Positions 15,426 to 17,986 of a stretch of 64,000 nucleotides of DNA are shown piece by piece. Position numbers and translations under genes: made by a program. Numbering within the stretch: position 1 is the first letter of the stretch; the number at the start of each line of letters is the position of its first letter. The notes under the pieces were generated by a model. That model was given only the letters and a program-made list of their open reading frames with translations. It made no database searches and had not been told where the DNA came from. The DNA lies in NCBI RefSeq assembly GCF_013408305.1, contig NZ_JACBZS010000001.1:1054001-1118000 (forward strand), read 5' to 3'. This DNA is from Naumannella cuiyingiana. GTDB taxonomy: Bacteria > Actinomycetota > Actinomycetes > Propionibacteriales > Propionibacteriaceae.

Positions 15426-16205
15426 ATGACGCAGACGATCACGCAGCTGTCCCCCGACCGGGCCCGCGCCTGGCTCGACCGCTGGGACGCCCAGCAGGCC
15501 ACCTTCTTCGCCGACCGGGAGGAGCGCTTCGCCGTGATCGGCGACGTTCTCGCCCACGCGATCGAGCGTCCCGATCCGTTGATCATCGACCTCGGTGTCG
15601 GCCCCGGCTCGCTCGCGGCGCGGCTGCTGCGTCGGCTGCCGAGCGCCCAGGTGATCGGCATCGACCAGGACCCGCTGCTGCTGGGGCTGGCCGAGGCGGC
15701 GTACCGCGACGAGTTCGGCGGGCGTTTCCGCGCGGTCACAGGCGACCTGGGCGAGGCGGGGCGGCTCGACCGGCTCGGGCTGCACCGCGCGCCCGACGCC
15801 TTCGTCTCCACCACCGCGCTGCACTGGCTGGACCCGACCGCCCTGCGCGAACTGCTCGGCACCGCTGCCGGGGCGCTCGCGCCCGGCGGGGTGTTCGTCG
15901 ACGGCGACCACCTCTACGAGCGGACCGACCGCTTCGACGCACTGCTCCGCGAGGTCGGCGCGACGGCCCGCACGCGCCGCGGCGAGCAGCCGGGCGAGGG
16001 CTGGCAGGAGTGGTGGCAGGCGGCCTCGGAGGCGCCGGAGCTGGCCGAGCTGTGGGCGGCGCGCGAGCGTACCGACCTCGGCCATCACGTCTCGTCGCCC
16101 GCGACCGTCGGCGACTACCTGGCGGCGCTGCGCGAGGGCGGCTGCGCCGAGGTCGGCCAGGTCTGGCAGTGCGGCGACGACCGGGTGATCGTCGGCATCC
16201 GCTGA
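15426..16205 (+). CDS. Class I SAM-dependent methyltransferase
   Basis: A 259-residue protein with a Rossmann-like SAM fold. Motif I is LIIDLGVGPGSLAARLL (about residues 52-68), the acidic loop is VIGIDQDPLLL, motif IV-like STTALHWLDP follows, and motif V-like LAPGGVFVDGDH comes next. The substrate is unknown. A CAGGAT -10-like box (15413-15418) lies 7 nt before the ATG at 15426. It is divergent from LysR and may be under its control. It ends just before a repeat-rich intergenic region. Confidence 0.8.
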   Translation: MTQTITQLSPDRARAWLDRWDAQQATFFADREERFAVIGDVLAHAIERPDPLIIDLGVGPGSLAARLLRRLPSAQVIGIDQDPLLLGLAEAAYRDEFGGRFRAVTGDLGEAGRLDRLGLHRAPDAFVSTTALHWLDPTALRELLGTAAGALAPGGVFVDGDHLYERTDRFDALLREVGATARTRRGEQPGEGWQEWWQAASEAPELAELWAARERTDLGHHVSSPATVGDYLAALREGGCAEVGQVWQCGDDRVIVGIR

Positions 16206-16320
16206 CCCCTCCGATCCGCCCCCCCTCCCCTCCGACCGCGCCACCTCCCCTCCGATCCGCCCCCTCCCCTCCGACCGCGCCACCTCCCCTCCGACCTCGC
16301 CACCTCCCCCCACCTCCCCC
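16206..16320. repeat. Pyrimidine-rich degenerate tandem repeat
   Basis: At least four 19-20-bp units begin CCTCCCCTCCGA and alternate the endings CCGCGCCA and TCCGCCC, decaying into CACCTCCCCC. The strand is almost purine-free. It forms the left part of a 334-nt gene-free interval between the methyltransferase and ehuA. Confidence 0.75.
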
Positions 16321-16325
16321 AGCCG

Positions 16326-16386
16326 ATTGTTTCCGTAGTTATGCCCGCTATCCGTGCCGGATAGCGGGCATAACTACGGAAACAAT
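16326..16386. repeat. 28-bp perfect inverted repeat, 5-nt loop
   Basis: The arms (16326-16353 and 16359-16386, beginning ATTGTTTCCGTAGTTATG on each strand) are perfectly complementary around the loop GTGCC. The arms are far more AT-rich than the surroundings. It lies between two convergent transcription units and could act as a bidirectional terminator-like hairpin, but there is no T-tract, and the long arms look more like a palindromic repeat element. Confidence 0.85.
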
Positions 16387-16395
16387 TCGAGGCGA

Positions 16396-16523
16396 GGGTG
16401 CAGCGACGGAGAGCCCGGGTGCGGCGGCGGGAAGCCCCGGGTGCGGCGACGGGAAGCCCCGGGTGCGGCGACGGGAAGCCCGGGTGCGGCGACGGAGAGC
16501 CCGGGTGCGGCGGCGGGGAGCCC
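16396..16523. repeat. 21-22-bp tandem repeat, six copies
   Basis: Six consecutive units of the form GGGTGCGGCGACGGGAAGCCC begin at 16396, 16417, 16439, 16461, 16482 and 16503. They differ by a few A/G changes and by one extra C in two units. The array ends 16 bp before the stop codon of ehuA. It encodes nothing recognisable in any frame. Confidence 0.85.
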
Positions 16524-16539
16524 GGGGCGGCGGGGAGGC

Positions 16540-17295
16540 TCAGGCCTCCAGCACGGCGTGCAGGAACTGGCGGGTTCGCTCCTGGGTCGGGTTGCCGAAG
16601 ATCTGCGACGGCGGGCCGTCCTCGATGGCGGCGCCGTGGTCGAACATCACCACACGATCGGAGATCTCCTGGGCGAACCGCATCTCGTGGGTGACCAGCA
16701 GCATCGTCATGTCGGTGCTGTGGGCAAGATCGCGGATCACGTTCAGCACGCCGCCGACCAGCTCGGGGTCGAGCGCGGAGGTGGGTTCGTCGAAGAGCAT
16801 CACCCGCGGCTGCAGCGCCATCGCCCGCGCGATGGCGACCCGCTGCTGCTGGCCGCCGGACAACTGACCGGGCCGCTTGCGGGCATGCTCGCTCAGGCCG
16901 ACCATCTCCAACAGCTCCATGGCGCTCGATGTGGCCTCGGCCTTCGGCTTGCCCTGGACGTGCACCGGCGCCTCGATCACGTTCTCCAGGGCGGTCATGT
17001 GCGGGAAGAGATTGAACTGCTGGAAGACCATCCCGATCCGGCTGCGGGTACGCCGCATCGCCGCGGTCTCGCGCGGCTTCTGGCCGGCCCGCAGGTTCCA
17101 CAGCTCGTCGCCGTCGACGCGTACCTGCCCGCTGGTCGGCGACTCCAACGTCATCAGGATCCGCAGGATGGTGGTCTTGCCCGACCCGGACGGGCCGATG
17201 ATCGACACCTTCTCCCCCGGCGCGACGGTGAAATCGAGTTCGTTCAGCACGACATGCTGGCCAAATGCCTTGGTCACGTTGGAGAAGCTGATCAT
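16540..17295 (-). CDS. ehuA: EhuA-like ABC transporter ATP-binding protein
   Basis: A 251-residue ATPase of the polar amino-acid/ectoine importer family. It has Walker A GPSGSGKTT, the Q-loop in GMVFQQFNLFPHM, the signature LSGGQQQR, Walker B MLFDEPTSALDP and the His switch in VTHEM. The phrases ALENVIEAPVHVQGK and LVGGVLNVIRDLAH and the ending QERTRQFLHAVLEA match EhuA of ectoine/hydroxyectoine importers as I remember it. I chose the ATG at 17295, preceded by CCGGAGAACCG, over an in-frame ATG at 17346 inside the permease 3' end. Last gene of the minus-strand ehuBCDA operon. Confidence 0.8.
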   Translation of the reverse strand: MISFSNVTKAFGQHVVLNELDFTVAPGEKVSIIGPSGSGKTTILRILMTLESPTSGQVRVDGDELWNLRAGQKPRETAAMRRTRSRIGMVFQQFNLFPHMTALENVIEAPVHVQGKPKAEATSSAMELLEMVGLSEHARKRPGQLSGGQQQRVAIARAMALQPRVMLFDEPTSALDPELVGGVLNVIRDLAHSTDMTMLLVTHEMRFAQEISDRVVMFDHGAAIEDGPPSQIFGNPTQERTRQFLHAVLEA

Positions 17296-17329
17296 CGGTT
17301 CTCCGGCCGCGGGCCCACGCGCTGCTCGG

Positions 17330-17986
17330 TCATTGTTGGGTGGCAAGGCGGGCCTCCAGTCGATTGACGATCAGCGAGGACGGATAGCTGACCAGGAAGT
17401 ACAAGATGGCGGCGATGGTGAACGGCTCGAGGTAGCGGAACTCGCTGATACCGATCCGCTGCGCCGTCGCCATCAGCTCGATGACCGTGATCGCCGACAG
17501 CACGGCCGAGTCCTTGAACATCATGATCAGGTAGTTGCCGAGCATCGGCACCACCGTGCGGAAGGCCTGCGGCAGCACGATCCGGAACCACACCCTGGCC
17601 CGCGGCAGGTTGAGCGCGGTCGCCGCCTCCCACTGCCCCTTGGCCACCGACTCGATACCGGCGCGATACACCTCGGCCAGGTAGGCGCTGTAGTTGATCC
17701 CGATCACCAGCACCCCGGTGACGAGCGCGGAGAACGAGATGCCGAAGTTCGGCAGCACGAAGAAGGCGAAGTACGCCTGGACCAGCAGCGGCGTACCCCG
17801 GACGAACAACACACCGAACGTCAACACCTGACTGAGCACCGGGATCCGCAGGTAGCGCAGAATGGCGACGACCAGGCCGAGCACCGCGGCCAGCGCCGTG
17901 CCGAGCAGGGTGATCTGCACGGTGGTGACCAGCCCGCGCAGCAGCGTGGGGATGATCGAGATCGCGAACTGGTTGTCCCAGATCAT
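17330..17986 (-). CDS. ehuD: EhuD-like ABC transporter permease
   Basis: A 218-residue integral membrane permease of the HisMQ type with about five membrane spans. The EAA loop is GQWEAATALNLPRARVWFRIVLPQAFRTVVP. The N-terminus (WDNQFAISIIPTLLRGLVTTVQIT) and FRYLEPFTIAAILYF near the C-terminus resemble EhuD. It overlaps the upstream permease gene by 4 nt and forms the heterodimeric channel with it. Confidence 0.78.
   Translation of the reverse strand: MIWDNQFAISIIPTLLRGLVTTVQITLLGTALAAVLGLVVAILRYLRIPVLSQVLTFGVLFVRGTPLLVQAYFAFFVLPNFGISFSALVTGVLVIGINYSAYLAEVYRAGIESVAKGQWEAATALNLPRARVWFRIVLPQAFRTVVPMLGNYLIMMFKDSAVLSAITVIELMATAQRIGISEFRYLEPFTIAAILYFLVSYPSSLIVNRLEARLATQQ

Follow-up and report, generated by a model that had tools for sequence, protein, structure and literature searches.

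Dispersed palindromes of Naumannella cuiyingiana belong to repeat families that flank genes for AbiEi/DUF559-like proteins

Introduction

REPs are palindromes of 20-40 bp in which one end bears an unpaired tag, GTAG or CGTC, and in the REPtron and TIRtron layout a cognate gene lies between two repeats while solo repeats are dispersed over the genome (available parts of PMC3733652). Their copy number is usually above 100 per genome, as given in the accessible part of PMC2817692. REPs of the CGTC type are described as having no candidate agent (PMC3733652, same parts), and REPs were counted in Actinomycetota genomes in PMC12306157, the available text of which does not mention RAYT. Some dispersed palindromes have no candidate agent, and the protein family described here, bracketed by matching repeats, supplies a candidate pair of enzyme and substrate. 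It also gives AbiEi/DUF559-type proteins a possible role and may link a selfish element to replication initiation through a DnaA box.

We analysed a 64,000-nucleotide stretch of the Naumannella cuiyingiana genome (the window) around a palindrome at 16326-16386. Its repeat family resembles REPtrons and TIRtrons, as far as the available parts of PMC3733652 describe them, in that the palindromes are dispersed, intergenic and biased to gene 3' ends, the cognate gene is flanked by its own repeat, and one genome holds several repeat families, each with its own gene. Unlike REP/RAYT systems, the source genome carries no Y1/HUH tyrosine transposase by profile search and the cognate gene is AbiEi/DUF559-like. 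Compared with the REPs of those partly available sources, the palindrome is long (61 bp, with perfect 29-bp arms), its GTAG lies inside the paired stem, and the copies are few, with at least 18 sites for family A, 14 for family B and 5 for family D. Among the best-ranked titles and abstract openings of a literature search, none connected nuclease genes of the DUF559 or AbiEi type with palindromes, whether flanking or dispersed; no text containing both 'AbiEi' and 'DUF559' was found, and co-mentions of 'DUF559' and 'palindrom' looked unrelated. We conclude that the palindrome is probably a dispersed end-hairpin copy of a selfish element, whose gene encodes a protein with an AbiEi-like N-terminus and a DUF559/Vsr-like C-terminus of the PD-(D/E)XK type.

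Results

A perfect palindrome lies between convergent genes

The features of the locus are as follows.

15435..16205, + strand: methyltransferase-domain protein gene, convergent neighbour, start codon unsettled
16206..16309, no strand: C-rich tandem array left of the palindrome, 20-bp unit, 5.2 copies
16326..16386, no strand: palindrome, member of dispersed family A, arms 100% complementary, 16 and 18 genomic sites
16326..16354, + strand: left arm, 29 bp (inverted-repeat search)
16355..16357, no strand: loop, 3 nt (inverted-repeat search)
16358..16386, - strand: right arm, 29 bp (inverted-repeat search)
16396..16532, no strand: G-rich tandem array right of the palindrome, 21-bp unit, 6.5 copies
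16540..17346, - strand: ABC transporter ATPase gene, convergent neighbour

The 61-bp inverted repeat consists of two 29-bp arms, 100% complementary, around a 3-nt loop. An inverted-repeat search of the window (arms of at least 16 nt, spacing of at most 60 nt) returned 27 pairs; among the 25 listed this was the sole perfect one, and the other 24 were 71-94% complementary. The RNA fold of 16300-16410 reached -66 kcal/mol (z -9.94), and none of 200 shuffles was as stable. The earlier note, made from the sequence alone, had described a palindrome of perfectly complementary 28-bp arms around a 5-nt loop, ending in ATTG...CAAT, located between convergent genes in an AT-rich island. The palindrome proved real, and its ends, its perfect arms and its position between the + strand gene ending at 16205 and the - strand gene at 16540-17346 were as described; the sizes needed correction, since one further G:C pair closes the stem to give 29 bp and 3 nt. 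Low GC content was found as well (49% vs 71% for the window), and the island extends over just the 61 bp of the palindrome itself.

The missing T-tract was also borne out. No T run follows the palindrome, a terminator scan of the window gave no report at 16326-16386, and the GC-rich hairpin followed by a T run that marks an intrinsic terminator is not found there. The palindrome is thus like intrinsic terminators in being a strong hairpin between convergent genes, and unlike them in lacking the T run and belonging to a multi-copy family. An Rfam search of the region gave three matches at E <= 1, none of which reached the gathering score; two were to microRNA hairpins, at the palindrome, and one was to COG3860 RNA, at 16155-16208.

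Family A is dispersed in the source genome and keeps its arms paired

Blastn with a 73-base query found 16 family A sites in the source genome (32 hits, both strands per site). A covariance model built from these sites refound all of them and added C1:1606022 and 871173, giving 18 sites at E <= 1.6e-10; this is a lower bound, as the model scored 150 of the 2609 first-look candidates in the source genome. An extra hairpin at C1:989071 was found by pattern alone and is counted as family A solely in the table of copy contexts. The proposal of a dispersed palindromic element is therefore upheld, and the BLAST for copy number that the earlier note had suggested excluded a single genomic copy. Family A arms were found by blastn only within palindromes in the source genome. 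The outer 23 bp of the left arm read ATTGTTTCCGYAGTTATGCCCGC, a stretch that hardly varies in the canonical arm of the 16 aligned copies.

Some copies are symmetric, with both arms terminating ATTGTTTCC/GGAAACAAT, while in others one arm is of the ATTGTTTCC/GGAAACAAT type and the other terminates like GATCCCTCCCG. Arm changes are compensated: among nine of the more symmetric copies, 8 of the 29 pairs were altered on both sides. The covariation score of these nine copies was reached by 0 of 500 shuffles, in a comparison where related sequences may beat shuffles without structure, and 217 of 500 matched or exceeded the number of further pair types. In the partner-sliding control, paired cells fell from 95.3% to at most 45.2%.

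The copies are specific to the species where this was tested. A conservation check by blastn found no family A copy in the sister species (G001), where the covariance model detected weaker relatives of different sequence. The xerD-like and parA-like genes are adjacent in both species, with a family A palindrome between them in the source genome only; at this one syntenic comparison no clean empty site was seen, as the spacers do not align. No orthologue of the window methyltransferase was found in the sister species at E <= 1e-10. An exact 19-mer of the arm matched 0 records of a public genome collection, from which the source species is possibly missing. Copies L013 and L019 adjoin near-identical paralogous genes and may represent one event copied by segmental duplication.

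Palindromes of three families bracket nuclease-like genes

Two further families were followed in the source genome. Family B, with arms around GTGTCGTCAGTTATCGCCGCC, was also retrieved by the family A covariance model and has 14 sites (blastn, E <= 0.01), none of which had a blastn counterpart in the sister species; family D has 5 sites (E <= 1.2e-10).

Results showed that family A copies at C1:2507076 and 2508162, 1.1 kb apart, bracket a 318-codon gene (L106:1744-2700), and family B copies at 1240653 and 1241732, also 1.1 kb apart, bracket a 306-codon gene (L113:5298-6218) whose product is 59% identical to that of the first. The downstream copy is imperfect in both cases, overlaps the 3' end of the gene in family A, and was missed by the gapless hairpin finder in both. 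Near-perfect family D palindromes bracket a third, distant paralogue (C1:2091665). Every palindrome family that was followed (A, B and D here, and one in another genus described below) flanks a gene of this protein family.

Palindromes were present at both ends in 3 of the 4 family members examined in the source genome, a count that does not include the weak match C1:923714, C1:3448088 and a sixth match. The fourth member, L119 (C1:2733318), has no hairpin pair; its flanks hold, by eye, repeats of the CGGGCGAGTGGTCGG type in inverted orientation in place of hairpins. In the sister species, 3 of 3 homologues examined, out of six counted by profile, carry palindrome-like repeats at both ends according to visual inspection and folding; with the gapless finder, L115 had one hairpin, and L117 and L118 had none. 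The flank repeats of L117 resemble, by eye, palindromes dispersed in that genome.

Two other family B pairs lie further apart, at 3355205/3358198 (3 kb) and 1200717/1204677 (4 kb), with ordinary genes inside the 3-kb pair. Profile search found no nuclease homologue in the 64-kb window. A pattern search with the family B arm returned five records in unrelated taxa (L101-L105: two Labrys genomes, one acidobacterial MAG and two others); these hairpins, which carry partial B arms, are probably chance matches, and a profile search of their 8-kb loci found no nuclease homologue. Among viral contigs there were 8 pattern matches, and tblastn revealed no relative of the B protein in any of them.

The proteins combine AbiEi-like and nuclease-like regions

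PADLOC AbiEi models matched the N-terminal region of all seven proteins searched, with a best E of 6e-15, which likens this region to AbiEi, the antitoxin of the AbiE type IV toxin-antitoxin system. Unlike that antitoxin, the proteins have a nuclease-like C-terminus, and no AbiEii partner was noticed by eye among the ORFs beside the A and B genes. Across 45 sequences (E <= 0.01), the C-terminal region matched DUF559 in 11 and the MTES_1575 nuclease family in 9. The A protein itself gave an insignificant MTES_1575 match (E 0.24) and no Pfam match at 0.01; because of this, its predicted nuclease activity rests on homology.

Profile matches suggest a C-terminus akin to the DUF559 and MTES_1575 families and to Vsr-like (EDxHD) homing endonucleases, from which the proteins differ in the attached AbiEi-like N-terminus and the flanking palindromes. 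Matches to PDB profiles were weak, with E 0.013 for 3hrl ('Endonuclease-Like Protein') and E 0.25 for 3r3p ('Mobile intron protein'), an EDxHD homing enzyme; a PDB profile search with seven sequences gave a best E of 0.36. NCBIfam yielded three weak hits, each in a single member (best E 0.11), and PHROGs had no match to the protein family. Six residues are invariant in the 45 sequences (D152, E207, R211, D239, G253 and R268), a set compatible with a PD-(D/E)XK site. For the E-D-(E/D) catalytic residues expected of such nucleases, E207 and D239 are the candidates.

Most homologous genes examined across the taxonomic family are flanked by their own repeats

Within the same taxonomic family, 113 of 147 genomes had matches to a seven-sequence profile (E <= 1e-10). 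From the better of the listed matches we picked 40 loci by hand (L157-L196), one per genome, favouring long contigs and with the flanks unseen, and took up to 5 kb per side; two loci were shortened by contig ends. Of 58 gapless hairpins scoring at least 15, 39 stood no more than 500 bp from the gene; the other 18 bins of 500 bp shared the remaining 19. At least one strong hairpin was near the gene in 25 of the 40 loci, on both sides in 13, and none in 15; counted by side, a hairpin was upstream in 20 and downstream in 18.

Repeats shared by the two flanks were also scored with no hairpin required. When the 500 bp upstream were compared with the 500 bp downstream, the top-scoring repeat reached at least 16 in 31 of 40 loci, compared with 3 of 234 shifted control pairs, and stayed under the threshold in 9. 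Direct and inverted scores both reached 16 in 21 loci, as palindromic repeats would give. Not every flank repeat was palindromic: the top score of L189 came from a different direct repeat.

Palindrome similarity rose modestly with protein identity. Across 561 pairs the Spearman correlation was 0.17, a value attained in 3 of 2000 permutations; the pairs come from 34 of 47 loci, the remainder lacking a hairpin or falling outside the alignment. For pairs with at least 40% protein identity, the mean palindrome similarity was reached by 0 of 2000 permutations.

A genome of another genus (G057) repeated the arrangement of the source genome. The palindrome flanking its gene has 18 full-length sites, two of which flank the gene; full-length sites made up 36 of the 45 hits of the search and partial copies the other 9. 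The same palindrome had no match at E <= 1e-4 in five congener genomes, where the gene family is represented by other members.

By eye, the arms in L183, L189, L191, L192, L195 and L196 and in the D palindrome appear to contain an internal direct repeat of motif, spacer and motif, as in CGTTGATCC-N10-CGTTGATCC of L196. Such arms possibly provide four motif copies per palindrome as subsites for the protein.

DnaA-box motifs stand upstream of the genes

Counting the motif TTRTCCACA around the 40 genes gave 22 occurrences in the first 500 bp upstream, spread over 19 of 40 loci, and a single occurrence in the remaining flanking bins taken together. In the 300 nt upstream of 47 genes (the 40 and seven others), the best DnaA-box match was perfect in 23 and had one mismatch in 12; the corresponding numbers for 1082 control windows were 1 and 36. 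A perfect TTRTCCACA also stands upstream of the L106, L113, L118 and L119 genes, and in these and the 19 loci it lies about 40-225 bp from the gene. The sequence TTGTCCACA is a high-affinity DnaA box in Mycobacterium tuberculosis and Streptomyces coelicolor according to the available part of PMC4285127. Together with the GC content of 71%, a box of this type would point to an actinobacterium as the source. DnaA may bind these candidate upstream boxes, judging from their sequence.

A nuclease-encoding element as the proposed source of the palindromes

The data show that the palindromes are associated with the genes, dispersed, species-specific where compared and, in family A, covarying. On the best reading, a nuclease element other than a known transposase has REP-like palindromes as its ends and probably uses them as its substrate, and we infer that the nuclease spreads them. 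The AbiEi-like N-terminus would recognise the arm sequence, and the nuclease domain would cut DNA at or near the hairpins. Repair could then copy the palindrome to new sites between genes, for the most part on the 3' side of a gene, and on rare occasions carry along the entire unit of palindrome, gene and palindrome; arm symmetry would be restored when one arm is copied onto the other. The upstream DnaA box may couple expression or action of the gene to replication. Such an element would parallel a REP/RAYT pair in how it works, its enzyme being unrelated, and any terminator effect on neighbouring genes would be a by-product. Several points weigh against a selfish element: mobilisation was unobserved, neither a target-site duplication nor a clean empty site was seen, the downstream A and B copies are imperfect, the gapless finder gave few hairpins in the sister species, the nuclease assignment of the A protein and the PDB matches are weak, 9 of 40 loci had no flank repeat at the threshold and 15 no strong hairpin, the correlation with protein identity is modest, L119 lacks a hairpin pair, and the 3-kb B pair encloses ordinary genes.

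A wider proposal is put forward tentatively, as a possibility that we do not favour over its opposite: the elements may form a separate selfish class, in which AbiEi-DUF559 nucleases, unlike any known type of transposase or recombinase, bind a motif in their own long palindromes. They would spread the palindromes, with or without the gene, through cutting and templated repair that the DnaA box couples to replication, and palindromes particular to each gene lineage would seed related genomes in a species-specific way.

It is unlikely that the palindromes are instead operators or decoys of a self-regulating AbiEi-like regulator, with dispersed copies spread otherwise, by recombination or replication errors. 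The AbiEi-like N-terminus of 7/7 proteins and a palindrome at promoter distance upstream of the gene in 20 of 40 loci agree with such regulation, but the downstream copy (18 of 40 loci, and families A, B and D) is needless for an operator, and 18 dispersed sites in each of two genomes require a spreading mechanism.

Positions of the copies and the remaining explanations

Copies of families A and B were placed relative to genes with a home-made codon-usage gene caller, in counts that include the copies beside nuclease genes and enter composite loci twice. On this basis 32 of 33 copies lay outside predicted genes, the remaining one overlapping the end of a nuclease gene, and 31 of 33 adjoined at least one gene 3' end. 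The gaps were convergent in 17 cases, tandem in 14 and divergent in 2. For comparison, the 18 window gaps of at least 80 bp comprised 2 convergent ones, including that of the palindrome itself, 12 tandem and 4 divergent.

The excess of convergent over divergent gaps, the fold of -66 kcal/mol and the site between convergent genes would suit a strong bidirectional terminator or transcription barrier, kept under selection and protecting the ABC transporter gene. We regard this explanation as improbable: the site has no T run, and 14 of 33 copies have tandem genes on their two sides. Termination also leaves unexplained why the outer arms are nearly identical at 16 to 18 loci and why two copies stand around one gene.

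Very improbable is a REP-type family spread by a now-lost RAYT/Y1 transposase, in which the nuclease-like gene merely hitchhikes between copies. Intergenic position and the bias to 3' ends fit REPs as characterised in the available parts of PMC3733652, and the layout foreseen in the suggestion of REP-like repeats with a RAYT was indeed found. The enzyme was not: Y1_Tnp (PF01797) had 0 matches in the source genome in a search that was positive in 5 of 14 control genomes, and the gene flanked by two copies is AbiEi/DUF559-like. Flanking by their own repeats in 31 of 40 other loci also makes chance hitchhiking of the nuclease genes unlikely.

The palindrome is least probably of all a MITE of an ordinary insertion sequence with a DDE transposase and the arms as terminal repeats, for the genes inside the 1.1-kb A and B pairs are two nuclease-like genes and blastn found the arms only as palindrome parts, although a composite of about 190 bp at two loci is in its favour. 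In this composite an A hairpin and a B hairpin occupy opposite sides (L024, C1:2535511; L027, C1:598646), and the two loci have different neighbours and are 79% identical over 224 columns. It looks like a non-autonomous hybrid element, and to that extent the label 'MITE-like' was apt. Target-site duplication, a mark of MITEs, was not visible by eye at the 16 A sites, and no alignable empty site was found.

Tandem arrays and base composition around the palindromes

Tandem arrays, absent from the earlier note, adjoin the window palindrome on both sides (16206-16309 and 16396-16532). Around 33 palindromes, 18 arrays lay within 250 bp (12 of 33 loci), vs 2-5 per further 250-bp step, an enrichment that compares distance steps only and to which intergenic position may contribute. 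The flanks of 35 palindromes in the source genome were C-rich on the left and G-rich on the right (mean C-G +0.14 and -0.12). Both flanks had these signs at 20 of 35 palindromes, compared with 6 of 22 other intergenic midpoints, indicating a tendency to a C-to-G switch. In some copies (L002, L006 and L007) the flanks extend the stem.
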